This document shows positions 16,916-34,661 of a DNA stretch of 34,661 bases, piece by piece. The DNA is from Phycisphaerales bacterium (GTDB taxonomy: Bacteria; Planctomycetota; Phycisphaerae; Tepidisphaerales; Tepidisphaeraceae): contig JADYZN010000043.1 of NCBI GenBank assembly GCA_020853095.1, positions 1 to 34,661 of the forward strand, written 5' to 3'. Under the pieces are notes generated by a model, which saw nothing but the letters and a program-made list of their open reading frames with translations, was not told where the DNA came from and made no database searches. The translations under genes and the position numbers were made by a program. Every line of letters starts with the position of its first letter. Position 1 is the first letter of the stretch.

Positions 16916-18208
16916 TCATGTGGACGGAGAGGATGCTGAATCAACCTGAGCGTCTTTCAGATGAATCGTCGCCTCCACCGCATCGACGGCGACGGCGCGT
17001 AGCTGCTGGACGGTTTCCTGAAATTCACGCTCTTCCTCTTCACGCAGATTCGCAGGAATCTCGATGGAGTCGCGGAAGACAAGCGGGCCGGGCACGCGCC
17101 TGCCGACCAGTCGGCGGACACCCTCGCGGATCATGAATGTCAGCATCTCGGCGGCCTGCTGGCCGATCTCGTGCATTGGCTGGGTCAATGTGGTCAGCGC
17201 GGGATCGCAGGTGGCCGCGAGGTTCAGTCCGGTCGCGCCGATCACGCCGACGTCCCGCGGCACGCGAACGTGCGATTCACGCAGGGCACGGATCGCGCCA
17301 ATCGCCAGAGAATCGGAAATTGCGAAAATCGCCTGGGGCGCCCGCCCGCCGGATTCAGCGAGATATGCCTTGGTTTCCGAATAGCCGCTTGCTTCCAGCG
17401 GATCCTTGACCGTGCGCGTCACGATCCGATCGACCGGAACGCCCTTTTCCATGTACCCCTGAAACAATCCAAGGGTTTTTTCCACGTCGGTTCGGAATGA
17501 TCCCATCGAGCGGCACAGAACCAGCACATCACGCAATCCCATCTCCGCCAGGCATCGCCCGACCCGTTTGCCGCCGTGCAGATTGTCCGCCGCGACGAAA
17601 TTATAAACGCTGTGCTGGGTCAGGGGGTTGATGGTGACCCACGGGATGTCGCGGATGTCGAGTTCCTTGACCAGCGAGCGGGTGAAATCAAACGCGGTGA
17701 ACATCACGCCGGCCAGTGGTGTGCCCAGACGCTCAATTCGCTGCGTGACCGCCGCCGCGAAATCACCCTGGTCCAGCGGTACGGGGATCGCCATCAGATC
17801 AAGATGATGCGACTTGAGCGTTTTCAGGAACGATCGATTGATGTGCGATGACCATTCGTCGGTATCAAACGAGAACGCCATCTGCCGCCGAAGCAGCTCG
17901 CGATCCTGTTCGCTCATGTCCAGTTCAAGATAAGGCGCAAGCAGGCCGACATAGGTTGATTTCACCGATTGATATCGAGGTCGATTGATAAACACCCCCG
18001 AGCGGTCGCGCATTTCGACAATCCCCTTGTCCTGCAGGATCTGCAGAGCCGATTGGACGGTGGCCGCGCTGACGTTGAACTCGCCGGCCAGTTTCCGCAT
18101 GGGTGGAACCTTGCCATCGGCCAGCCACCGCCCGCCGCGGATCATCTGCTGGAGCTGATCGGCGATCTGCCGGGTGACGGTTGGGAATGTGAGTGATGGT
18201 TTTGACAT
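16916..18208 (-). CDS. GntR-LacI hybrid transcriptional regulator
   Basis: 430 residues from ATG 18208. Residues ~8-75 are a GntR-type winged helix (IADQLQQMIRGGRWLADGKVPP, then FNVSAATVQSALQILQDKGI with the wing at RSGVFINRPRY). About 85-395 is a LacI-type periplasmic-binding-protein-like sensor domain (YVGLLAPY, VTINPLTQHSVYNFVAADN, AIFAISDSLAIGAIRAL, VGVIGATGLNLAATCDPALTTL). This architecture is that of AraR-like sugar-responsive repressors. A charged tail (~400-430) is extra. A near-consensus promoter lies at 18259-18287, and operator-like TTTGTAC repeats lie in the shared upstream region, suggesting control of itself, the downstream propeller protein and the divergent PEP-CTERM gene. The effector is unknown. 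Confidence 0.92.
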   Translation of the reverse strand: MSKPSLTFPTVTRQIADQLQQMIRGGRWLADGKVPPMRKLAGEFNVSAATVQSALQILQDKGIVEMRDRSGVFINRPRYQSVKSTYVGLLAPYLELDMSEQDRELLRRQMAFSFDTDEWSSHINRSFLKTLKSHHLDLMAIPVPLDQGDFAAAVTQRIERLGTPLAGVMFTAFDFTRSLVKELDIRDIPWVTINPLTQHSVYNFVAADNLHGGKRVGRCLAEMGLRDVLVLCRSMGSFRTDVEKTLGLFQGYMEKGVPVDRIVTRTVKDPLEASGYSETKAYLAESGGRAPQAIFAISDSLAIGAIRALRESHVRVPRDVGVIGATGLNLAATCDPALTTLTQPMHEIGQQAAEMLTFMIREGVRRLVGRRVPGPLVFRDSIEIPANLREEEEREFQETVQQLRAVAVDAVEATIHLKDAQVDSASSPST

Positions 18209-19255: not shown

Positions 19256-19969
19256 ATGAAATCCTCGCGTCATGGTTTCACGCTGGTCGAGCTTCTGGTC
19301 GTCGTCGGAATCATCGCTCTTCTTATTTCCATGCTCCTGCCGGCCTTGAACAAGGCCAGGAGGGCGGCGATGAAAACGCAGTGCCTCAGCAACCTCCGCC
19401 AGATCAGCACCGCCGTCTATCTGTACCTCAACGACAACAAGGGCATCTTCCCTGGTGGCGAGATTTACAAGGCCGACGGCTCGGTCTTCAAGAGGACTCA
19501 GATGGGCTGGGTTGGGAAGCGCGGACTTGCGGCACTCGGGTATGACCATCTGGCCGCCAACGACCGCCCTCTGAACCGTTACCTCGGCGGACATTTTGCC
19601 CCGGATGATCCAGTCGAAATCGCCCATTGCCCGGAGGATAATGCAAACACTTTCGGCGGGACCTCATTATACGACTCAGCCGGGACATCATACGGTGCCA
19701 ACGTCGTCTTTGAAGGCACGATTTCCGGAGCCGATGACCCATGGCGCGGAGTCAATCAGAATAAGGTGCGCCAGCCGTCCCGAATGGTGATGATCGCTGA
19801 CGAAGGTGCGTTCTACCCCGGCTGGTCCGGCGACCTCACTCAGCGGCAGTTTTACTGGCACTCAAGGGATCCCATGTGGAATGTCGCCTTCGTCGACGGC
19901 CACGCCGCAACGGTTCGCATCGACCGGATATTCTCCGACAGCGATTACACCTTCATCCTTGGCCTGTAA
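19256..19969 (+). CDS. Pseudopilin-like protein
   Basis: 237 residues from ATG 19256, with GGAG 6-7 bp upstream. A short leader KSSRHG is followed by [17 protein letters not shown], a canonical prepilin cleavage site and helix, then [17 protein letters not shown]. The globular domain ends with [17 protein letters not shown]. The His to DG spacing is 11 rather than 9, a variant of the H-X9-DG tail. It lies downstream of the PEP-CTERM gene, separated by the stem-loop repeat, and 40 bp upstream of a truncated secreted-protein gene, so it may belong to the same unit. A role in surface filaments, or in glycan binding or transfer, is inferred only from family and context. Confidence 0.9.
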
Positions 19970-20803: not shown

Positions 20804-22291
20804 TTATATCTGTATCGTTACGGTCTTGACTTCGGTGTAGTTGCGCAGTGCGTACTCGCCCAATTCACGGCCAATGCCGGACATTTTGTATCCGCCAAAA
20901 GGCGCTGCCGCGTCAAATACATCGTAGCAGTTGACCCAAACCGTGCCGGCTTTTAGTTCGGCGGCCAGGCGATGGGCCTTGGAGATGTCCCGTGTCCACA
21001 CGGCGGCGGCCAGGCCGTACATGGTGCGGTTGCCACGTTGGATGACTTCATCGACATCCTTGAAAGGAATGATGCTCATCACCGGGCCAAAGATTTCCTC
21101 CCGGGCGATTTTCATTTCGTCTTTGACGTCGGTAAATACGGTTGGTTCGATGAAATAACCCTGCCTGCCAACGCGGCTCCCGCCGGTCAACATGCTGGCG
21201 CCTTCGTTTTGGCCGGCTTTGATGTAGCTCATAACCTTGTCGAATTGTTCCTGGCTGATTTGCGGGCCTTGGGTGGTCTTGGGATCGAATGGATCTCCAA
21301 CTTTGGTATTTTTGACTTTTTTCATCATCCTGTCGACGAATTCATCATGTACCTTCCGTTCGACGAACAACCGGCTGCCGGCGCAACAGCACTGGCCCTG
21401 GTTGAGAAACAACCCCAGATGCGATCCATCAACCGCTTGATCGAGATCGCTGTCGGCGAAGATGATATTGGGGCTTTTGCCGCCCAGTTCCAGTGAGATG
21501 CGTTTGAGATTGGAGCGGCCGGCGGCCTGCATGATCAACTTGCCGACCTCGGTCGATCCGGTGAAAGCGACTTTATCGATGTCCATGTGTTCGGCGATGG
21601 CGGCGCCGGCCGTCTCACCGAAACCAGGGACAATGTTGATGACGCCTTGGGGGATTCCCGCCTCCATCGCCAGTTCTCCGACGCGCAACGCGCTCAACGG
21701 CGTTTGCTCGGCGGGCTTGAGGACGACCGTGCATCCAGCCGCCAGTGCCGGGCCCCATTTCCATGCCTGCATCAGCAATGGAAAATTCCAGGGAATGATC
21801 TGGCCGACGACTCCGATCGGTTCGTGGCGGGTATAGCAGAAATATGGGCCGGTGATGGGTATGGTCTTTCCTTCGATCTTGTCAGCCCAGCCGCCGTAAT
21901 AGCGATAGCAATCGATGGCCAGCGGCAGATCGGCGGACAGGGAATCGGCGAGCGGTTTCCCGTTGTCCAGCGTTTCAAGCGCGGCCAGTTCATCCTTGTT
22001 CTCTTCGATGAGATCGGCGAGTTTGTAGAGAAGGCGGCCTCGCTCACGGGCGCTCATCTTACGCCAGGGGCCGGCCTCAAATGCCTTGCGCGCCGCCTTG
22101 ACGGCTTTGTCGACATCGACGGACTCGCCTTCAGCGACGTTGGCAATGACCTGCCCCGTGGCGGGGTTTATTGTTTCAAACGTCCGGCCACTGGTGGAAT
22201 TGATCCATTTCCCGTCGATCAGCATACGGGTCTGGCGAATTTTGACCGGCGACTTGGATTTTCCGGTCAACGGAGCGAGAGTCGTTGACAT
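20804..22291 (-). CDS. NAD-dependent aldehyde dehydrogenase, ALDH1/2 type
   Basis: 495 residues from ATG 22291, chosen because AGGAG lies 8 bp upstream; the frame extends slightly further. It oxidises an aldehyde to a carboxylate with NAD(P). Visible motifs in order: PWNFPLLM, the cofactor loop [26 protein letters not shown] with the general-base Glu, the catalytic [11 protein letters not shown] (middle Cys, about residue 300), EEIFGPV and [13 protein letters not shown]. The triple Cys and the length match the ALDH1/2 class of tetrameric enzymes rather than semialdehyde or methylmalonate types. It is downstream of the third pseudopilin on the same strand (gap 38 bp), so it may be co-transcribed with it under the LacI-type regulator. 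The substrate cannot be read from sequence; a sugar-derived or lactaldehyde-type aldehyde is possible. Confidence 0.95.
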
Positions 22292-22329
22292 AGGCGAACT
22301 CCTGTGATTGAGCTGGTTCCGCAAGCAAA

Positions 22330-23158: not shown

Positions 23159-23187
23159 AGGTTAAGCAAATCACGTTTGCCTGTCAA
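23159..23187 (-). promoter_or_regulatory. Candidate promoter of the third pseudopilin gene
   Basis: On the minus strand a perfect TTGACA (23187-23182) is followed by 17 bases and TAACCT (23164-23159), a weak -10. The expected start near 23152 leaves a leader of about 55 bases. Operator palindromes touch the -35 on its upstream side and fill the spacer. Confidence 0.45.
23166..23180. promoter_or_regulatory. Secondary operator-like inverted repeat in the spacer
   Basis: GCAAA and TTTGC arms separated by 5 bases (TCACG). The arms are identical to those of the two 11-bp palindromes at 23188 and 23303, and the centre is 20 bp (about two turns) from the first of them. It lies inside the -35/-10 spacer of the pseudopilin promoter. 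Confidence 0.4.
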
Positions 23188-23198
23188 GCAAAATTTGC
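23188..23198. promoter_or_regulatory. Operator-like palindrome, pseudopilin side
   Basis: GCAAAATTTGC is a palindrome around a central base and is typical in form for LacI/GalR-family operators. It abuts the -35 of the minus-strand promoter (23182-23187). With its flanks CAA...GTC it forms an inverted copy of the second site at 23303. Confidence 0.6.
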
Positions 23199-23302
23199 GT
23201 CTGTAACCACCCTGTTGTTTCAAATCGAATATCGGAGATATCAGACTGTTCAGCCGCATTCAACAGTCGGGAACGGGAGATGTCAGGAAAATTCGGTTGG
23301 AC

Positions 23303-23313
23303 GCAAAATTTGC
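23303..23313. promoter_or_regulatory. Operator-like palindrome, LacI gene side
   Basis: The same 11 bases, GCAAAATTTGC, 115 bp centre to centre from the first copy. That is close to 11 helical turns, so two bound dimers would sit on the same face of the DNA. It overlaps or touches the -35 region of the regulator promoter, as expected for autoregulation. Confidence 0.6.
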
Positions 23314-23343
23314 CTTGTTTTGCTTTGTCAAATACGATATTAT
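23310..23343 (+). promoter_or_regulatory. Candidate promoter of the LacI-type gene
   Basis: Two registers are possible: TTGCCT (23310-23315) with TACGAT (23333-23338), or TTGTTT (23315-23320) with TATTAT (23338-23343). Both have a 17-base spacer. The leader to ATG 23375 would be 25-30 bases. Confidence 0.4.
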
Positions 23344-24499: not shown

Positions 24500-25558
24500 A
24501 TGCTGACACCTTCGCAATACAAACCGATCACCGGAACGTTCGTCAGTTGCGTGGCAGGCGATACGGGCATCAACAACTGGGGGTTGGCCGAATGGGAATA
24601 TGAATTCAGGCTGTATAAGGCGATCGGCATTGACACCGTCATCATCATCCGCTGCGAAGTGGAATCGGATGGCCTGTATCAATCCGGGTTCGATCCAAGG
24701 TCGACCAGTTGGCCGGAAGATCCCGATCTCGTATCGATGTTTTTCCGCTTGTCTGAAGAACATGGAATGAAGTTATACCTCGGCGGCACGGAAAGCCTGG
24801 ACAACCTGTACAAGGGGTATTGGAAACAGGAGATCGAAAACAACCGGATTTTTTATGAACGCGCTTTGGACAAATTCGGTGACTACAAATGTTTTCACGG
24901 ACTGTATTACACGGTTGAAGCGCTGCCCTGGCATTTTAATTTCTGTGACATCGTCATCGGCACCGCCGAAGCGGCCCACAAGTTGGCTCCGGGCATGAAA
25001 AAGTTGTTTTCTCCCACGCTCTATGGCTTGACGGGATATCCGAACCGACACTATACGCTGGATGATTTCAAAAAGATTTACGGCCAGTTGCTGCAAACGA
25101 TCTCCGGGAAGCTGGATTACTGCGCATGGCAGGACAAATATTTTCTACCCAATTGCAGGATGGGGCAGGTTTTGGAAACAAGCCTGGATGACTGGTATCG
25201 CGCCGCCAAACAGATCACGGAGGCCGCGGGTGCGGAATTCTGGTCGAATATCGAGACGTTTCAGCGTTCCACCACGACGGCGGAACATCGTGATTTTCGA
25301 CAAATCGACTATCGCAGCCTCGCCTTCAAACTTCAAACCGCGGCAAGGTATGCGGCCAAGAACATCACCTACGAATTTTCGACCTGTCTGAGTCCCAACG
25401 CGGAGTGGGGATCGTCCGCGCGGTTGTTGGCACGCTATCTGGAGATGGCCGGCCTCGATCCGGATATCCCGCGCCAATTGCTCGAACGACCCGTGTCAAA
25501 GGCGCCAACCCTTCCACTCCATCCAATTCGGAAGCGTTCTCTTGTCGCCAATTCCTGA
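24500..25558 (+). CDS. DUF4434-like TIM-barrel protein, putative glycosidase
   Basis: 352 residues from ATG 24500; the ribosome site is weak (GAGAG upstream). There is no signal peptide. The N-terminus ITGTFVSCVAGDTGINNWG, then WEYEFRLYKAIGIDTVIII, is the DUF4434 pattern at the first strands of a TIM barrel. Conserved-looking acids sit at predicted strand ends: YYTVEALPW (middle) and FWSNIETF (late). They are spaced as in retaining glycosidases of the clan A type, which makes a hydrolase likely but unproven. It lies 40 bp behind the LacI-type gene and 31 bp before the propeller protein, so it is probably part of one operon acting inside the cell on imported oligosaccharide. Confidence 0.8.
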   Translation: MLTPSQYKPITGTFVSCVAGDTGINNWGLAEWEYEFRLYKAIGIDTVIIIRCEVESDGLYQSGFDPRSTSWPEDPDLVSMFFRLSEEHGMKLYLGGTESLDNLYKGYWKQEIENNRIFYERALDKFGDYKCFHGLYYTVEALPWHFNFCDIVIGTAEAAHKLAPGMKKLFSPTLYGLTGYPNRHYTLDDFKKIYGQLLQTISGKLDYCAWQDKYFLPNCRMGQVLETSLDDWYRAAKQITEAAGAEFWSNIETFQRSTTTAEHRDFRQIDYRSLAFKLQTAARYAAKNITYEFSTCLSPNAEWGSSARLLARYLEMAGLDPDIPRQLLERPVSKAPTLPLHPIRKRSLVANS

Positions 25559-25589: not shown

Positions 25590-27215
25590 ATGATTGCATC
25601 TACGTCATCCGGCTTGATTGGTGATTGGCCGCTTCGAAAAAACGCCAGGAACGCTGCCTCCGATACGATGCATGCGATTCCGGACGGTAACGTCGTCCAT
25701 GATGCGCAAGGAGCGATATTTGACGGCCGTAATGCGAAACTGGTTGTCCATGGCGCCGATCTCATTTTTGGGAAAAGGGATTTCACCCTGTCGGCCAGGA
25801 TAAGGATCGAGGCGGATGAAGCCGAATGCATCGGAAACATCGCCGGCAAGTTTGACCTCGATACACGGACCGGGTTCAACTGGTCTGTTGTCGATCATGG
25901 CGGGGTTACCAGCTCATCATCCAATTATCGCAATCTGAACTTCTCAATGGATGCGGGAACCCTTCCGCAATGGATGGATTGCGGCCGTCCAGGAAACGCA
26001 CGGCACATCTGCGCTTTGACGGTCAACCGTGGCGATCTTTATGCCGGCACGTTTGAACATGATGATGGGGAAATCGGCCGTGTGTATCGACATACGGGAA
26101 ACTCCGGATGGGAGGACACCGGCCTGCCCTGTCGGTCCAATAGCGTGTTCGGATTGGCGGCGATCAACGGGGTACTTTATGCGTCCTCGGGGCGGTACGA
26201 CCCTCGCAATTCCGCATTACCAGACACCGGCAACATGGATGAGGAAACCCGCATCTGGCGAATGGAGCCCGGTGGCGGCTGGAAGGATTGTGGAAATCCT
26301 CACGTTGGCACAAACGATTTATACAATCTCGGCGTTTATCGCGGCCGGCTTTACGCAACACCGAGTTTCGCCAGGGGATTGTACGGATACGATGGTGACA
26401 AGGATTGGAAAACGTGCCGCGAGCCATACCCACGATTCCTGAGCCTGTGCCAATGGCGTGGTCATCTGTATGGCGCCAGCAACAAAGGGCTTCGCCATCT
26501 TGGTCCGCCTCCGGATAGAGAAATTAGTTTTGAAATGTTGCCCGATGCGGATGGCGTCTATAGATACGATGATCGGAACGATGCATGGACCGGTTGCGGC
26601 GCCATTCCCACCGAGACCCAGATGTATTCATTTGCCGTGCATCGTGGCGCCCTCTTTACAGGTACGTGGCCGAACGCGAAAGTGTTTCGCTCCACAAGCG
26701 GCATGGGGTGGGATGATTGCGGGAATCTCCATCCGGAAGAAAAAGAAGTCATGGCCATGTGCGTCTACAACGGCATGATGTACGCGGGCACGCTCCCCGC
26801 CGCGGATATTTACCGGCTGGACGGAGATCACCATTGGACGCGGGTGGGAAACGTTGATTCGACTCCCGACGTGAAATATCGCAGGGCGTGGAGCATGGCG
26901 GTTCATGAGGGCGGACTGTTTGTTGGCGCGTTGCCAAGCGGGCACGTCTGGATGATGCGAACCGGGGCCGTCGCTTCCGACAGCCATCAGTTGACCACGG
27001 GCTGGCATCACGTTCTGGCCGTCCGGAAGGGTTCTGCCGCGATGATCTACGTGGATGGGGTGCTGCGCGGCCGAAGTTCATCCGATATTCAACTTGATTT
27101 GACCAATCGCCAGCCATTGACGATCGGATTCGGCGGGCATGATTATTTTCGTGGCAGGATCGCTGATTTTCGATTGTACGACCGCGCGCTTTCAGGATCG
27201 GACATCCAGCCATGA
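25590..27215 (+). CDS. LamG domain interrupted by a beta-propeller
   Basis: 541 residues from ATG 25590; no signal peptide and a weak ribosome site. Residues 1-135 look like the first half of a LamG/concanavalin fold (LIGDWPLRKNA, FTLSARIRIEADE). About 140-453 is a propeller of ~45-60-residue repeats, each with a strand pair of the type G-x-LY-AGTF and a following W-x-D-C-G turn (GDLYAGTF, GVLYASSG, GRLYATPS, GHLYGASN, GALFTGTW, GMMYAGTL, GGLFVGAL). Residues ~455-541 finish the LamG fold (TTGWHHVLAVRKGSAAMIYVDG, GRIADFRLYDRAL). The likely job is glycan recognition or a scaffold for the neighbouring enzymes. A sialidase-like or lyase activity cannot be excluded, but no catalytic motif is recognised. 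Confidence 0.8.
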   Translation: MIASTSSGLIGDWPLRKNARNAASDTMHAIPDGNVVHDAQGAIFDGRNAKLVVHGADLIFGKRDFTLSARIRIEADEAECIGNIAGKFDLDTRTGFNWSVVDHGGVTSSSSNYRNLNFSMDAGTLPQWMDCGRPGNARHICALTVNRGDLYAGTFEHDDGEIGRVYRHTGNSGWEDTGLPCRSNSVFGLAAINGVLYASSGRYDPRNSALPDTGNMDEETRIWRMEPGGGWKDCGNPHVGTNDLYNLGVYRGRLYATPSFARGLYGYDGDKDWKTCREPYPRFLSLCQWRGHLYGASNKGLRHLGPPPDREISFEMLPDADGVYRYDDRNDAWTGCGAIPTETQMYSFAVHRGALFTGTWPNAKVFRSTSGMGWDDCGNLHPEEKEVMAMCVYNGMMYAGTLPAADIYRLDGDHHWTRVGNVDSTPDVKYRRAWSMAVHEGGLFVGALPSGHVWMMRTGAVASDSHQLTTGWHHVLAVRKGSAAMIYVDGVLRGRSSSDIQLDLTNRQPLTIGFGGHDYFRGRIADFRLYDRALSGSDIQP

Positions 27216-27246
27216 TCACATACCGGGCCAGCGCAGGAGACGAATC

Positions 27247-28830
27247 ATGAGAGGCTTTCACATCGACATGAACATTGCGCAGTTTAAGCGTCCTTACCTG
27301 GAGCAATGGCTGCGAAAGATCGCCGAACTTGGATACGATACGGTCATCTGGGAAGTTGAGAACAACGTACGCTGGCGCACCGTACCCGAGTGCGCCGCCC
27401 CCGATGCTTTTCCACCGGAAGAGTTCAGACAAATCGTTGACCTGGCGCGGTCGCTTGGGCTGGAGTCGATCCCAATACTCCAGACATTGGCCCACTGCGA
27501 GTACGTACTGAAACATCCGCGGTACAAGCATCTTTCCGAACATGGGGATGAGGTTGTCCAGTATTGTCCCCTCCACCCCGGTTTGCGGCCATTTCTACAG
27601 GGATGGATGGACGAATATCTGGATGTCTTCGGTGCAATCAATGTCTTTCACGTTGGCGGAGATGAATCGTGGTGGCTGGGATCGTGCCCGCGTTGCAAGG
27701 AGTACGCCCGGCAACACTCCCTGGGTGAATTGTACGTTCAACACGTCAACGCGATCCTGCAATATCTGATCGACAGGAAGATCCGCCCCGCATTGTGGGC
27801 GGACATGGTTCTCAGTCATCCTCATATCGCCGATCTGATCCCGCGACAAACCATCATGTTTGACTGGATGTACGACATCTATCGGGGAAGCGGTAAAGTC
27901 TGGGTATGGGGCGATCTGAAGATGTGCGACCGGCATCAGATTCCGCCAAACCGTTATCACTTCTATCGTCGCCATCTGTTCCCTGATGGTGATGAACCGG
28001 GGCGTGAGCCGGAAACTTTTTACACCGCGGATTTTTTGAATGACAAAGGATTCGCCGTTGTCACGTGCCCCGGCGCCAGTCATTTTGGTGACAACGTGTT
28101 CATGGGCCGCACTCATCTGCACATGGTCAACACCTACGACTCGTGGCGTAAAGGCATGGAGCTGGATGGGTCGGTGCTTACGAGTTGGAGCGTCCATCTG
28201 CACCCATGGGAATTGCAGTTGCCGACGATCGAACTGGGACCATGGATGGAACGTCATCCGGATGGGACACTGATTGAATATCAGCGTGAGTTCACGATCA
28301 ATCATTTCGGGTTGGAAGACAACCGTTTCTGGCGAGCCTTGGGATTGCTGTCCAAATCGATTCTCTTCAGCACCATGTTGACGCTCGGCCACGACAAGAC
28401 GGCGAGGGATGTTCCGCCTGCGTTCGCCATTGAACTTCTCAACAAGCTCCATGCCGAAGGCCGCTTGACCGCGGAGCTTGAAAACGCGCGTGGTCGGCTG
28501 GTCGAATACCAGGCCGCGCTTGGCCTGTTGAGTCAAATCACCGCCTCCGCAACGCGCGGCGGAGAGATGCTGAAGCATTACGTGCTCGCGGCACGAAATC
28601 TGATTCATCGCGCCGAAGTTGCGATCCATCTGATCGCCCGTTTTCAAGGAAATACGGAAGGGGATGCGAAGGAACTTCTGGACCGGCTTGCCGACCTCCG
28701 CAGCGAGACGGAATCAATGTATGAGCCGTCACAAAGGTCCGCCCGGCGTGCTCGGATCATCACGTGGCTGTATGCGCCATTCGAGCATGCATTGAAAGAC
28801 CTGGCCTCATCGACGAATCCACCTTGTTGA
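27247..28830 (+). CDS. GH20-like beta-N-acetylhexosaminidase-related protein
   Basis: 527 residues from ATG 27247, chosen because AGGAGA lies about 7 bp upstream; the open frame starts earlier but without a site. A TIM barrel begins at once (MRGFHIDMN, YLEQWLRKIAELGYDTVIWE). It contains NVFHVGGDESWW, the GH20 H-x-G-G-D-E motif; D139-E140 are the substrate-assisting Asp and the acid/base Glu. There is no signal peptide and no N-terminal GH20b domain. A mostly helical C-terminal region (~370-527) replaces the usual ending. GH20 enzymes release terminal beta-GlcNAc or GalNAc. The cytoplasmic prediction fits hydrolysis of imported oligosaccharides. It is the last gene of the LacI-led run and nearly touches the convergent gene (9 bp). 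Confidence 0.85.
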   Translation: MRGFHIDMNIAQFKRPYLEQWLRKIAELGYDTVIWEVENNVRWRTVPECAAPDAFPPEEFRQIVDLARSLGLESIPILQTLAHCEYVLKHPRYKHLSEHGDEVVQYCPLHPGLRPFLQGWMDEYLDVFGAINVFHVGGDESWWLGSCPRCKEYARQHSLGELYVQHVNAILQYLIDRKIRPALWADMVLSHPHIADLIPRQTIMFDWMYDIYRGSGKVWVWGDLKMCDRHQIPPNRYHFYRRHLFPDGDEPGREPETFYTADFLNDKGFAVVTCPGASHFGDNVFMGRTHLHMVNTYDSWRKGMELDGSVLTSWSVHLHPWELQLPTIELGPWMERHPDGTLIEYQREFTINHFGLEDNRFWRALGLLSKSILFSTMLTLGHDKTARDVPPAFAIELLNKLHAEGRLTAELENARGRLVEYQAALGLLSQITASATRGGEMLKHYVLAARNLIHRAEVAIHLIARFQGNTEGDAKELLDRLADLRSETESMYEPSQRSARRARIITWLYAPFEHALKDLASSTNPPC

Positions 28831-28839
28831 CCCGCCCGG

Positions 28840-30741
28840 TTATTGGGGAGCGCCTGGCGGTTCATCAGCCTGGAGGGAATGGCAAACACCCTGAAAGTCG
28901 CAAATAACTTCCCGGCAGCCCCGTATCGGCAAATCAAAGACAACGTATTCGGACTGTTCCACCATTTGGTGGTCGAATGAAACCGGCTTGCCATCCACGT
29001 TAACGCCCGTGCAGGTTCGACCCGATGGGAGCAGGATGCGAAAGGAGGCGTGAACGCCCGTTCCGGTGAATGACAGGGTGATCCGGCGATCGGACAACAC
29101 GTAACGATAGGAGAAATAGGAGTCGGATGCGGGAAAATGCGCCGTCGCATCAGCATTATGACAAGACATCGCGGGCCAGCGCGGGGCGCATGAGACCTGC
29201 TCAAAGCACTTGCCTGCCGAGCGGATGCCTGCAAGTTCTTCAATGACCGCCTGCGTCCATGGGGACAAACCCCACGCATCATGGTTGGTTTGATTGTGTG
29301 GGGCGTTAATTGCGGCGTTGCCCTGCCGGTCGTACCAGGTGAACAGCGCGCCACGGTCGCGTTTAAAGACAAAGTGCAGATCGGCAAGGAGCGTCACGGC
29401 CACTTCCTCCATCCCATGCTGGAACGCGCCGCGGCACAACTCGCCGCCCACCAGCGGGAAAAGGCCACCATTGGCGTAATAACCCTGGGTTGACCGCCAA
29501 GGCTCAACCGGTTCGAAATATTTCAACTCATCGGGATATCCGGGCTGAAGACTCCACCATGGGAATCGGTCGCCGGTTTCATTCCATCGCCTTAGATATT
29601 CCTTGAGAATTGAAACCGACTGTTTGTGGTCGGCGAAACCGCGTGTAATGGCCCATGCGCTGCTGAGGGTCAATTGATCTTCTTCGTTGAAATCCCCGTG
29701 ATCAAACGGATCGAGATGGATGTGATGGCGGTATTTGATGCCATCCCAGAACAGTTCATTGCCGATCCGGCGAAAATGATCCCGCATCCGCAGCCAATGG
29801 TTGGCGCGGCGGTCGTTATGCAATTGCTGATATGCCTGGGCCAACGAACGGCACGCATCATACATGCAAGCCGTGTCGCCCTGCATGATGACGTAGAGCG
29901 ACTTGTCGTTGATCATGTTTCCCTGCTGCCCCTGGGGAGTGAAGTGAATGTCCCATTCATCCAGCGTGTGCGGCCTCTTGATGACGCCATGCTTAAGATC
30001 AAAAGTCACGGGGTCCGTGATGACGTATTCCATGGACTTTTCCACCTTGGGTAGCATCGAATCCATCCATTGACCGTCTCCGTGGGCCTGCCATCCGCTG
30101 CACAAGGTAACGGCGGCGCCGATTTCCAGGTCGGCCATGCAGCTGCGCAGCCGGCGGCTGGTGCGCGGGCAGGGATAATCGTCGCTGTAGATGTGATCGG
30201 GAAGGCTTCCATCCGGATATTGGTAGGAGAACAATGCCTCGAACATCGACTTCACGTCGCGGATAAAATAGCGCAATGCTCCTATTGCATAGACGGGGTA
30301 GGCCATGTTCTGGCGGGTATTGTCGGCGGCTTTGTAATGGGTGATGGGTTTGCCATCGACGATTGAGATGTCGAGGGTCTGCGACAACCCGTCGCGCAGG
30401 TAACCAAACAGTTCGTTGGTCACGGCATGATCGGTTCGGATAGACGTCTGCACGTCCATCCGGAAACATCCATGCCGGCGGTATTCCCTGCCATCAGGCC
30501 CCACGGTCCAAAGCTGTACGTGATGCACTCCGGCCGCACCACCGGCGCGAAAAGTGGTTTGAGCTTTCCCATTTTGTGAAGTGAATGTTCCTGTCAGATA
30601 GGGATGATGAGCGGCGTCCGAGACCTCCAGATGCACCGGCTGTCCATGCAGCCCCCGCCATTCATATTCGACGGTTATCTCATCGAGTGGTGAGCATCTC
30701 GACGGGCTTGTCCACACCACGCCGGCTTCGATCAGGTTCAT
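28840..30741 (-). CDS. Six-hairpin (alpha/alpha)6 glycosidase, GH78/GH63-like
   Basis: 633 residues from ATG 30741, which overlaps the upstream stop by 4 bp (ATGA). Residues ~1-95 form an Ig-like sandwich (DEITVEYEWRGLHGQPVHLEV). About 110-530 is a helical toroid with the style of rhamnosidase/GH63-like enzymes (SYQYPDGSLPDHIYSDDYPC, CMADLEIGAAVTLCSGW, HTLDEWDIHF, FNEEDQLTLSSAWAI, GYYANGGLFPLVGGEL). A C-terminal sandwich follows (YRYVLSDRRITLSFTG). Candidate acids are Glu/Asp in DEWD and NEED. No signal peptide, so probably cytoplasmic. The exact GH family and linkage cannot be settled here. It is the last gene of the minus-strand operon. Confidence 0.75.
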   Translation of the reverse strand: MNLIEAGVVWTSPSRCSPLDEITVEYEWRGLHGQPVHLEVSDAAHHPYLTGTFTSQNGKAQTTFRAGGAAGVHHVQLWTVGPDGREYRRHGCFRMDVQTSIRTDHAVTNELFGYLRDGLSQTLDISIVDGKPITHYKAADNTRQNMAYPVYAIGALRYFIRDVKSMFEALFSYQYPDGSLPDHIYSDDYPCPRTSRRLRSCMADLEIGAAVTLCSGWQAHGDGQWMDSMLPKVEKSMEYVITDPVTFDLKHGVIKRPHTLDEWDIHFTPQGQQGNMINDKSLYVIMQGDTACMYDACRSLAQAYQQLHNDRRANHWLRMRDHFRRIGNELFWDGIKYRHHIHLDPFDHGDFNEEDQLTLSSAWAITRGFADHKQSVSILKEYLRRWNETGDRFPWWSLQPGYPDELKYFEPVEPWRSTQGYYANGGLFPLVGGELCRGAFQHGMEEVAVTLLADLHFVFKRDRGALFTWYDRQGNAAINAPHNQTNHDAWGLSPWTQAVIEELAGIRSAGKCFEQVSCAPRWPAMSCHNADATAHFPASDSYFSYRYVLSDRRITLSFTGTGVHASFRILLPSGRTCTGVNVDGKPVSFDHQMVEQSEYVVFDLPIRGCREVICDFQGVCHSLQADEPPGAPQ

Positions 30742-32237
30742 TTCAGGCTCCCGGTACGGGATAACATTACATCATTGATGATATCGAAAGGAAACATCGG
30801 CCGAGGGATGCGCTTGAACGGCAGCTTGGTCAGGTCCGCTCTGCAGCATCCAGGCGAATCAACCGACATGACCGCCTTGGAAATCGGCTCATAGTCCATG
30901 CGAAAACTGAGCGGGGATTTGCACAACACCAGTTTCATTTCCAGTGGTTCGATGCCGTGGCTTCGGTACATCTCCGGATCGGTGGTCGGCATGGGTCGTT
31001 CGGCGATCAGAAGATTGATTGCATTGATTTTCAAAACGGCGGAGCGGCCCATCTGGACGCGACGACCCTTATAGCAGCTTCCCTTATAGAAGAATTCGCC
31101 GTCAGAAATCAGCTTGACCCGGCCGGTCACAGCAATGAGCCGCGCGTACTCAGGATTTAATGCGCCCCCCACGGAGAGCGTTATCGTTTGTCCGACGCCG
31201 GCGTCAATGGCCCGCGCCACGGCCGGTGGATCGACCACGACCGCGGCGGTGGGCAGGTGAGACAGGCCCTTGCGCAGGATTCCCTCCAGAATATAGGCAC
31301 TGTCTCCAGGCGAACCGCCCATGGTGCCATCAGCCCCTTCACCAAGGGTGATCGGGCCTCCTTCGATCTTCAACGCCTGTTCCAACGCTTCATCCACGGT
31401 CGGCAGGCTGATTACAAATTCTTGTCTTCGGGACCACATTGCCTGGGCAAGCTCATCGGCATATCGGCCGGCCAGCATCGGATCATTGTCCGTCACGACC
31501 ACCGAACACCAGCCCAGTTCCTCGACATCCAACCACGGCTGACAGGGAAACAATGAGGTACTCAACACGCCAGGTCGACGTTCGACATCTCGTGCCAAAT
31601 CAAGCAACTGCCTGAAGACCCCGCGATCGCTGATCATCTGTTCCGCTTGTGTGACCAGTGGCAGCTTGCGAACCGCCATGGTCGGACGTTTCGCGCCGGT
31701 GATGGTCGAAGCCATCAATTCCGCGGCTCTCCGACCCGTGTCGGCGGTGTCCACGTGCGGGCATGTCTGATATCCAACCAGTGCATTGGCCGAGGAGGCC
31801 ATGGCGTTGCCGATTGAGGCGTGTAAATCCAGGCTGGCAATTACGGGTATGTCGGCGCCGACCAATCGACGAACCTGCTCAAGGACGTATCCATCTGCGC
31901 TGTCGATTCCCTCCGCGGCCCAGGCGCCATGCAGGGCAAGCAACACCCCGTCAATCGGCCCAGCGTTGCGAAGAGAATCGAGAAGCTGGTCGACCAGGGG
32001 GATGAAGTCCTTTTGGAGCATCCTGCCGGAGCTGACGGCCCACCCCCCAATCAGTGGGATGATTTGAACACCCCGTTTTCGCGAAAGCACATCCACGAAA
32101 CCATACACTTCGGTTTGTTCGACCCTGGCCGATTCCAAAAGTGCGTTTCCCGCGTGAATCTGAAAATCTTCCCGCCGGGTCAGCTTTGCGGAGAAGGTGT
32201 TGGTCTCTTGAAGCAGAGAGCCGATTGCAATGCGCAT
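30738..32237 (-). CDS. MlrC-family metalloprotein (microcystinase C-like)
   Basis: 499 residues from ATG 32237, with AGAGGA about 7 bp upstream, immediately after the previous stop. The N-terminus MRIAIGSLLQETNTFSAK is diagnostic for the MlrC/DUF1485 family. Likely zinc ligands are in LLALHGAWAAEGIDS, SLDLHASI and YQTCPHVDTADTG. A C-terminal MlrC domain follows (LGEGADGTMGGSPGDS, YKGSCYKGRRVQMGRSAVL). Known members hydrolyse a peptide bond of linearised microcystin, but most family members are uncharacterised hydrolases found with catabolic genes. Placed between a lactonase and a glycosidase, it may remove an amide or act on a sugar-derived acid. That is inference. Confidence 0.9.
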   Translation of the reverse strand: MRIAIGSLLQETNTFSAKLTRREDFQIHAGNALLESARVEQTEVYGFVDVLSRKRGVQIIPLIGGWAVSSGRMLQKDFIPLVDQLLDSLRNAGPIDGVLLALHGAWAAEGIDSADGYVLEQVRRLVGADIPVIASLDLHASIGNAMASSANALVGYQTCPHVDTADTGRRAAELMASTITGAKRPTMAVRKLPLVTQAEQMISDRGVFRQLLDLARDVERRPGVLSTSLFPCQPWLDVEELGWCSVVVTDNDPMLAGRYADELAQAMWSRRQEFVISLPTVDEALEQALKIEGGPITLGEGADGTMGGSPGDSAYILEGILRKGLSHLPTAAVVVDPPAVARAIDAGVGQTITLSVGGALNPEYARLIAVTGRVKLISDGEFFYKGSCYKGRRVQMGRSAVLKINAINLLIAERPMPTTDPEMYRSHGIEPLEMKLVLCKSPLSFRMDYEPISKAVMSVDSPGCCRADLTKLPFKRIPRPMFPFDIINDVMLSRTGSLK

Positions 32238-33131
32238 TTATAATCCTCTCTTAAGATGCGAGTGAGAATACAGCGGCATGCCGGGCGCAACCGGCTCAAG
32301 CACGGCCAGGCAACGCGCGCCCAGACACGCCACATAAAGCCGGTCCATCTGTTTGCCGCCAAAGGCGAGGTTGGTCGGCGTAGGCAGCCTGTAATTTTCC
32401 AGGTCCTGGCAATACAGGGCAACCTGCCCGGAAGGATCCACCCGATAAAGATGGTTAAGCCCGTAACAGGCGACCAGGAGGTTTCCTGCCGCATCAAATG
32501 CCATGCCATCCGGAACATGGGCAAGTCCCGAGCAATAAATCGATCTGTCGCCGGCGGTACCATCCGATTTGATTTCTATGCGGCAAACGCGATCCAGGTT
32601 GCTCTCGATGACGAATAACGCATCTTCATTCGCATTGATTGCCAGGCCGTTGGGAAATGCGAACGGGCCGGCATCGAACAGCTCGATACGACCATCCTGA
32701 CGGATGCGATGGATCATGCCATCGCATCCCTTGAATTGTCCCGAATCGGTCAGGTACAGGTTCCCGTCGGCATCGAAGACCGAGTAATTCGGTTGTCTCA
32801 ACCGGCTTCCATCCGGCGCGCGGTCCGCGATGCTGGTGAGCTGTCCACAGGGGTCGATGCGAATCAATTCACGTCTTGTCTTGTCGCATACGTAGAGGTT
32901 TCCCCTCTGATCCAGCGTGATGCCAAGAATGAATCCACCCGTGCAGGCGAACTGTTCGGTTCGCATGCCGTCATCGCTGATGCGATATATCTGCCCCATC
33001 TCCCCACCGGCATAAACGGTTCCATCCGGGGCGACGGCGACGCCTTCGGAATGGTCGATTCCATCGCCGAATGCCCGGATGCGTTCGATCGGAAACCGGC
33101 CTGGCTCATCATGGGTGCATCTTCGGCTCAT
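32238..33131 (-). CDS. SMP-30/gluconolactonase-like protein
   Basis: 297 residues from ATG 33131, 9 bp after the upstream stop; the ribosome site is weak. It is a six-bladed propeller with the family markers HSEGVAVAPDGTVYAGGE (metal Glu), NYSVFDADGNLYLTDSG, FPNGLAINANEDALFVIES and HVPDGMAFDAAGNLLVACYG; the Asn and Asp of these motifs bind the metal. Family enzymes open aldonolactones to aldonic acids. There is no signal peptide. It is tightly packed between the aminotransferase and the MlrC gene, so it probably takes part in a sugar-acid step of the same pathway. Confidence 0.9.
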   Translation of the reverse strand: MSRRCTHDEPGRFPIERIRAFGDGIDHSEGVAVAPDGTVYAGGEMGQIYRISDDGMRTEQFACTGGFILGITLDQRGNLYVCDKTRRELIRIDPCGQLTSIADRAPDGSRLRQPNYSVFDADGNLYLTDSGQFKGCDGMIHRIRQDGRIELFDAGPFAFPNGLAINANEDALFVIESNLDRVCRIEIKSDGTAGDRSIYCSGLAHVPDGMAFDAAGNLLVACYGLNHLYRVDPSGQVALYCQDLENYRLPTPTNLAFGGKQMDRLYVACLGARCLAVLEPVAPGMPLYSHSHLKRGL

Positions 33132-33140
33132 AAGCGAAGC

Positions 33141-34511
33141 TCATCTGGTGGATTGATACACGGCCTGCGCGCTGATTCGGCAGGCGGTGACGAGTTGCTC
33201 GATGTGTTCTTCTCCATGCGCGGTGCTGAGAAAACCCGCAATTCTGCCGGCGGGCCAGAGAATCCCCTGCGCCATCATCGCCATCGCAAAATCAAGTCGA
33301 CGATTGTCCCTTCGAACATCCCGTGAACTGCGTGGCGACGCGTCGGAAAAGTGAACGCCGAAAATCGAATGCTTGCCGGTGACGTACATGGGCACGCCAA
33401 GGTTGGCCGCCAAATCACGCAGCGCGGAACGCGTATGATCGCCAAGAGCATTCAATCTGGCGTTGACCGATCCATCCTCAACGGCTTCAAGGACGGCCAG
33501 GCATGCGCTCATGACGGTGGGGTTGCCCGAGAAAGTTCCGCTGCTCAAGGCTTTGTTGGACCGGTCATAAGGCGGCGAGAGGAGCGGCTCCAGGATGTCA
33601 CGCCGCCCTCCGTACATACCAATGGGCAGTCCGCCGGCCAGCGCCTTGCCGGTGATAAAGAGGTCGGGTCTGACGTCATAATGCGAGATCGCGCCTCCCT
33701 TGCCGATGCGAATGCCAGCGGGCACTTCATCGACAACCAGGAGGATTCCATGCCGGGAAGTGGTGCGGCGGAGGGCGTGGACGAAATCCGGCTCCGCGGG
33801 AATGGCGCCGCCAAAGATGGTCATTGGCTCGAGAAAGACGGCGGCGAGACGGTCGGCGTACCGTTCGATCAATTGGGCGGCGACGGCGGCGTCGTTGAAG
33901 GGCAGCATCAATACGTTGTGATCTTCGCCCGGCGACATGCCCAGGGAATCACGGATCGTTGCCGGCGCAGAGTCATCACCGGCTGGAGGACCATAATGGC
34001 TGAACAGCAGCGTATCGAGCTGTCCGTGATGATGGCCTTCGCACATCGCAATCATCGGACGGCCGGTGTGGGCACGACAGATGCGGGCGGCGATCGCGCA
34101 GGCTTCCGATCCGGAATTGACAAAACGCAGCATCTCAACGCAGTCGATCATCCGGCATACGCGCTCCGCGACCTCGACCTCCAGCGGGGAGGCGATGGAT
34201 TGCACCTCGGAGATCCGCAGTTGTTCCCGCACGCGATCCATGACAATCGGGCTGCAATGCCCAAAGAGGCAACTACCCCCTTCCAGGTTGAAATCCACGT
34301 AGTCGTTGCCATCGATGTCCGTGAGTAATGCGCCGTTCGCACGGCTGCCATACAGGGGATGGGGGTTGAACGCGGTGGCGCCGCGTGCTGCGCCGCCCGG
34401 CAATACCTGCCGCGCACGCTCATACATGGCGCGGGATCCGGTCGTTCGTTGATGATACAGGGCTTTGAGTTGATCCAGTGTTCGCATGGTTCTCATTTCA
34501 TTGGTGATCAT
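33141..34511 (-). CDS. Class III aminotransferase, glutamate-1-semialdehyde aminomutase-like
   Basis: 456 residues if it starts at ATG 34511, which overlaps the upstream stop as ATGA; ATGs at 34496 and 34487 are alternatives, and 34529 is less likely. It is a fold-type I PLP enzyme: [69 protein letters not shown], and the Schiff-base Lys in [14 protein letters not shown] (about K289). The context is catabolic rather than tetrapyrrole synthesis, and the motif DEVPAG differs from the usual DEV-x-TGFR of true GSA aminomutases. It therefore probably transaminates another substrate, for example an amino-sugar-derived compound. This is not hemL by context. Confidence 0.9.
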
Positions 34512-34661
34512 GTCAGCGGCAGCCGGCACATCATGCCGCCATCGACTGAAATCGTCTGACCGGTGATGTACGATGACAACGGGCTGACAAGGAACAGGAC
34601 AAGATTGGCATAATCGACCGGCTGCCCGACCCGCCTCAGAGGCACCACCGAGACGAGAGTT
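34508..34661 (-). CDS. Short-chain dehydrogenase/reductase, C-terminal 50 residues only
   Basis: Only the 3' end is in the window; the gene runs off the right edge. It reads [19 protein letters not shown], then [16 protein letters not shown], the standard C-terminus of FabG-like SDR proteins. The stop TGA (34510-34508) overlaps the start of the aminotransferase by 4 bp. It is presumably a sugar or polyol oxidoreductase and the upstream gene of the operon. Confidence 0.9.

Follow-up and report, generated by a model that had tools for sequence, protein, structure and literature searches.

The window, that is, the whole 34,661-nt stretch of DNA analysed here, carries a tightly packed glycan gene cluster (Table 1), whose three units were deduced from gene spacing and direction. 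The pseudopilin-like gene and an aldehyde dehydrogenase (ALDH) gene form a minus-strand unit, lacI leads a plus-strand unit with DUF4434, LamG and GH20 genes, and a minus-strand operon of seven genes converges with the lacI-led unit at 28830/28840. In this arrangement, lacI diverges from one candidate target unit and heads another. The frame of the GH20-like gene overlaps the preceding gene at its 5' end, and its true start is probably internal. The seven-gene unit encodes, in order, a CBM9 protein, a cupin, an SDR, a class-III aminotransferase, an SMP-30 protein, an MlrC-like protein and the product of a last gene, for which no match was found in Pfam or NCBIfam. It runs on past the window with the SDR, cupin and 1569-aa CBM9 genes, followed by its promoter. 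Modules that combine a GntR- or LacI-type regulator with a pseudopilin-like gene recur in the genome (16916-18208 with 19256-19969; L004:15637-17680; L097 near 4018 on C36), which suggests that pseudopilins are part of several glycan modules. A literature search on pseudopilin/LacI glycan loci returned nothing relevant.

Table 1. Genes, promoters and palindromic elements of the cluster inside the window.
Feature	Position (strand)	Description	Reading
Aldehyde dehydrogenase	20804..22324 (-)	PF00171; downstream of pseudopilin, same direction	
Pseudopilin-like protein, 255 aa	22330..23097 (-)	N_methyl PF07963 and start of DUF1559 PF07596	
Pseudopilin promoter	23159..23187 (-)	-35 TTGACA 23187-23182, spacer 17 bp, -10 TAACCT 23164-23159	sequence reading
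Loose copy	23166..23180	GCAAA-TCACG-TTTGC, between the -35 and -10 boxes of the pseudopilin promoter	background-frequency pattern, role doubtful
Palindrome 1	23188..23198	GCAAAATTTGC, centre about -41 from inferred start	candidate operator, pseudopilin-ALDH unit
Palindrome 2	23303..23313	GCAAAATTTGC	candidate autoregulatory operator, lacI-led unit
lacI promoter	23315..23343 (+)	-35 TTGTTT 23315-23320, spacer 17 bp, -10 TATTAT 23338-23343	sequence reading
LacI-family regulator, 361 aa	23375..24460 (+)	HTH of TVSR group and Peripla_BP_3	no hinge helix predicted in linker
DUF4434 protein	24500..25558 (+)	PF14488	
Laminin_G_3 (ConA-like lectin) protein	25590..27215 (+)	PF13385	
Glycoside hydrolase family 20-like protein	27139..28830 (+)	PF00728	
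Last gene of third unit	28840..30741 (-)		six-hairpin-glycosidase-like by eye only
M81 family metallopeptidase / MlrC-like	30738..32237 (-)	third unit	
SMP-30/gluconolactonase-like	32238..33131 (-)	third unit	
Class-III aminotransferase	33141..34529 (-)	third unit	

An earlier note on this DNA had described twin GCAAAATTTGC palindromes, 115 bp apart and each touching the -35 box of one of two divergent promoters, and both their positions and their spacing were confirmed. The window contains these two copies only; the first adjoins the TTGACA of the minus strand with no gap, and the second is separated from TTGTTT by one base. Their flanks are indeed related in inverted orientation, with 14-nt arms at 93%, of which one side is explained by the TTG that each -35 box brings, as the promoters face apart. 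If transcription starts about 7 bases past each -10 box, both palindromes would be centred near -41.

In the whole genome (3,609,737 bases), GCAAAATTTGC has exactly three copies, all within 17.7 kb. The genome scan for GCAAAWTTTGC that the earlier note had proposed thus yields one further copy, located 17.6 kb away and beyond the window (C43:40915-40925, equal to L004:7916-7926), where it abuts with no gap the TTGACA of the CBM9 gene that heads the third operon. This palindrome 3 and palindrome 1 have 19 identical bases in common (TGTCAAGCAAAATTTGCGT). Each of the three apparent transcription units starts with one copy, at gaps of 0, 0 and 1 base from the -35 box and with all three centres near -41, and all three genome copies lie at promoters of the regulator gene and its neighbouring units. 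As the motif was chosen from palindromes 1 and 2, palindrome 3 is the sole independent test, and it was passed. Random frequency, which the earlier note had set as a test of the motif, gives a divided answer. The raw count is ordinary, with three copies here, 0-5 in 25 relatives and about one per genome expected by chance, but the clustering and the promoter placement stand out, and the chance of such three-copy clustering is roughly estimated at 1e-4. In the relatives, the copies are scattered; at the loci fetched, they lie mostly within open frames, and neither GCAAAWTTTGC against a -35 box nor the same arrangement was seen at these loci.

The core of the palindrome and its position are a generic promoter feature, which had been overlooked earlier, and the GC caps alone are specific to the cluster. 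A/T tracts that stop one or two bases short of TTGAC recur, both in a 444-kb sample and in the whole genome. The genome has 22 matches to AWWTTTNNTTGAC and 0 to the reversed control; the promoters that carry it include those of LacI, GntR, pseudopilin and PEP-CTERM genes, and the AAAAWTTTT/TTGAC element has about 20 occurrences elsewhere in the genome. Because this element recurs next to the -35 box at unrelated promoters, core and position are not specific. Several of these elements are dyads of an A-tract and a T-tract centred six bases ahead of the -35 box, such as GAAAATTTTC-TTGACA at another pseudopilin gene, which is palindromic by itself, and GAAAAATTTTC-TTGACA at the PEP-CTERM gene that diverges from palindrome 3 (L004:8071-8200, C43:41070). 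The dyad of this PEP-CTERM promoter lies 158 bp from palindrome 3. The caps behave differently from the core, since, counted from the -35 box, C at position -10 and G at position -2 each occur in only 1 of 20 generic elements, and the joint expectation for all four cap bases (G-C...G-C) is about 4e-4 per promoter, as calculated from 20 other such promoters. They are present at both TTGACA-type unit promoters, and the lacI promoter also has the exact 11-mer. As a caution, a palindrome that adjoins a -35 box may, in this genome, be an A/T promoter element. The earlier note had also proposed a third, looser copy (GCAAATCACGTTTGC at 23166-23180) that fills the spacer of the pseudopilin promoter. 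This candidate for a third operator was rejected, as the genome has 38 matches to GCAAA-N0..12-TTTGC, six of them with N5, and 41 to the control pattern, and the one-base spacing is the sole spacing between GCAAA and TTTGC confined to the cluster.

The protein encoded by the lacI gene has an N-terminal LacI HTH (PF00356, 2.8e-13, above the cut-off) with a TVSR recognition helix and a sensor domain of the periplasmic-binding type (PF13377, 1.9e-25), and its PDB relatives are PurR, CcpA and LacI. A hinge helix, whose conserved Ala and Leu would insert at the central CpG, was not found, and structure prediction gave no helix in the linker GYRGLSRREGSLHRDG... (mean pLDDT about 47), whereas the canonical relative L109, taken from the same set of sequences and modelled likewise, forms a hinge helix at 69-76. 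In one alignment, a degenerate hinge (RDGVSGSL) follows an insertion of 10 residues, so that the hinge may have been shifted and not lost. The alignment of the protein with LacI stops at residue 331 of 360, and the LacI tetramerisation helix is missing. No orthologue with which the sites could be compared was found in the genus, the order, a 397-genome sample of the class or a contig scan (best identity 33%).

Operators of the LacI family follow a well-described rule, from which the palindrome departs. Of 1303 regulators surveyed, 1251 have motifs of even length, and most motifs carry a CG at the centre (PMC4052901). A leucine of the hinge inserts there, and the Arg in a TVSR helix predicts G at NT-6 together with a CG centre (PMC2978694). 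In contrast, GCAAA-A-TTTGC is odd, A/T-centred and without CpG, and its G fits NT-6 only when the central A is counted into the half-site. No convincing CG-centred operator was found upstream of lacI, and the intergenic region has no strong match to TGNNANCGNTNNCA; at C43:41039, TGGCATCGATACCG agrees with the backbone at 7 of its 8 positions. The rule is followed by most of the genome's other LacI genes, whose repeats stand at the -10 box or further downstream and not upstream of the -35 box. Upstream of a canonical LacI gene of the same genome (C42:5308-5460), four tandem AATGA[AC]CGNTCATT sites stand at intervals of about 21-22 bp. An odd, CpG-less palindrome would fit a protein in which no hinge helix is predicted.

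This fit was followed through 139 LacI genes of the order, 93 with a canonical and 46 with a deficient linker, where a CG-centred palindrome was counted from 6 of 8 pairs upwards. Such palindromes lie upstream of 42/93 canonical genes (45%; shuffles 12%) and of 9/46 deficient genes (20%; shuffles 11%; Fisher p=0.005), while odd A/T-centred palindromes lie upstream of 9/46 deficient genes (20%) and 7/93 canonical genes (8%; p=0.048). Both p values are correlations in which related sequences are not discounted, and they depend somewhat on curation, as the linker classes were corrected by hand (eight canonical proteins refiled, L173 and L174 set as deficient). A linker-deficient LacI gene of the same genome (L075, C36:33358-33486) and its sister-species relative (L155) have in common the odd A-centred palindrome AMCTGAAAATTTCAGGT, which exactly fills the -35/-10 spacer, while the flanks have drifted between the two species. 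Basic, AT-hook-like linkers (RRPGPKP, PGRRPR, RRGRKP, RPGRPKG) take the place of the hinge in several LacI proteins of related genomes (L116, L119-L122, L134, L141, L164, L192, L196, L197, L200, L218 and L243). A literature search combining LacI, AT-hook and hinge found no paper. A tentative generalisation, which we consider possible rather than probable, is that the 46 of 139 regulators lost the hinge helix, often for basic or AT-hook-like linkers, and read odd A/T-centred operators without CpG, some of them over UP elements, with the regulator of the window and GCAAAATTTGC as one such pair. If this relation is true, a search rule based on a CG centre would miss the sites of a large LacI-family group.

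For the cluster itself, GCAAAATTTGC is probably the operator of a small local regulon, with the LacI-type protein as the candidate binder and repression as its most likely action. The protein would bind as a dimer to GCAAAATTTGC at three promoters and thereby control the lacI-DUF4434-LamG-GH20 unit led by its own gene, together with the pseudopilin-ALDH unit that diverges from this unit and the seven-gene unit that converges with it and starts at C43:40.8 kb. Since the site overlies an A/T-rich UP-like element abutting the -35 box, the bound dimer would most likely exclude RNA polymerase (sigma region 4 and the alpha C-terminal domain) from this element and the -35 edge, until a glycan-derived sugar occupies the periplasmic-binding-type domain. 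The layout around lacI is usual for local LacI regulators under autoregulation (share autoregulated 72%; PMC4052901). The earlier note had predicted that the LacI-type protein controls itself, the glycosidase genes and the pseudopilin together. Common control of these genes by one palindrome is supported, because all genome copies lie at promoters of the cluster, and is extended to the third operon. Its attribution to the LacI-type protein is what we infer from sequence, as are the repression and the class of inducer, and the site breaks the CG-centred rule. Against a local operator stand also the A/T core and the position at -41, which are common to unrelated promoters, the more downstream location of the repeats at most other LacI genes of the genome, a hinge that may be displaced, and the absence of the CG centre that the Arg of TVSR predicts. 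Such a regulon would be a concrete three-unit example in an uncultured-type lineage, with a pseudopilin tied to a glycan regulon.

A rival view is that the palindromes are only strong UP elements, which bind the alpha subunit of RNA polymerase, their symmetry being a by-product and the regulator binding elsewhere or not here. The 22 to 0 count and the self-palindromic GAAAATTTTC-TTGACA and GAAAAATTTTC-TTGACA are in its favour, as are the separate CG-centred operators that lie downstream at those LacI genes where such an element is present; yet no alternative CG-centred operator stands out upstream of lacI, and caps that are rare at the element are at all three unit promoters and in exact form nowhere else, which makes this view rather unlikely. 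The main alternative for the same geometry is an activator site, in which a protein near -41 contacts sigma or alpha in a class II-like manner, the binder being the LacI-type protein or another regulator, e.g., one of the GntR/LacI hybrids (16916-18208; L004:16523-17680). Activating LacI-family proteins such as Cra/FruR are known (PMC4052901), two -10 boxes are weak (TAACCT, TAAATA), and the gap to the -35 box is more rigid than a repressor needs. This gap is equally accounted for by the generic A/T element, however, while two of the promoters combine a perfect TTGACA with a 17-bp spacer and would seldom need an activator, and the GntR hybrids lead modules of their own with no GCAAAATTTGC nearby, so that we regard activation as unlikely.

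The repression loop that the earlier note had proposed for the 115-bp spacing, in which the two palindromes cooperate as the GalR sites do at gal, is a doubtful reading and is not supported. The distance corresponds to 10.95 turns at 10.5 bp, near the 113 bp or about 11 turns between OE and OI of gal (PMC4693257), which would place both sites on the same helical face, although a single spacing has little weight and cannot show selection for phase, and with promoters that face apart it may simply be the spacing of the promoters. The protein ends where the LacI tetramerisation helix would begin, and the third promoter has one exact site, which presumably works without a second; a loop is therefore at best an option. 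A likeness that arose by chance among A/T-rich promoter sequences would agree with about one expected copy per genome and the 0-5 copies in relatives, but is very improbable when all three copies are clustered and at promoters.

The PurR consensus is ACGCAAACGTTTGCGT. The half-site GCAAA/TTTGC is identical to that of the PurR boxes, while here one A/T base replaces the CG step between the halves, and the recognition residues are V-S..R in this regulator but T-T..H in PurR. UP elements, the sites of the alpha subunit (PMC4390567), are similar in having A/T tracts right upstream of the -35 box at many promoters, which the A/T element of this genome resembles, but differ in that the GC caps completing the perfect dyad are confined to the glycan cluster. 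As for GalR at gal of E. coli (PMC4693257), both regions hold two promoters and a pair of dimer sites separated by about 11 turns (113 and 115 bp); the gal sites are even and CG-centred, whereas in the window the two promoters diverge and a -35 box adjoins each site, and a loop, an HU role or dimer stacking would be hypothetical here. The local autoregulated LacI regulators of sugar utilisation in the RegPrecise survey (PMC4052901) differ from the present case in the odd 11-bp core with its A/T centre and no CpG, and in the location of the site upstream of the -35 box over a UP-like element. They nevertheless resemble it in a regulator gene divergent from, and in an operon with, its targets, in a Peripla_BP_3 sensor and in a two-fold symmetric site at every promoter of the cluster.
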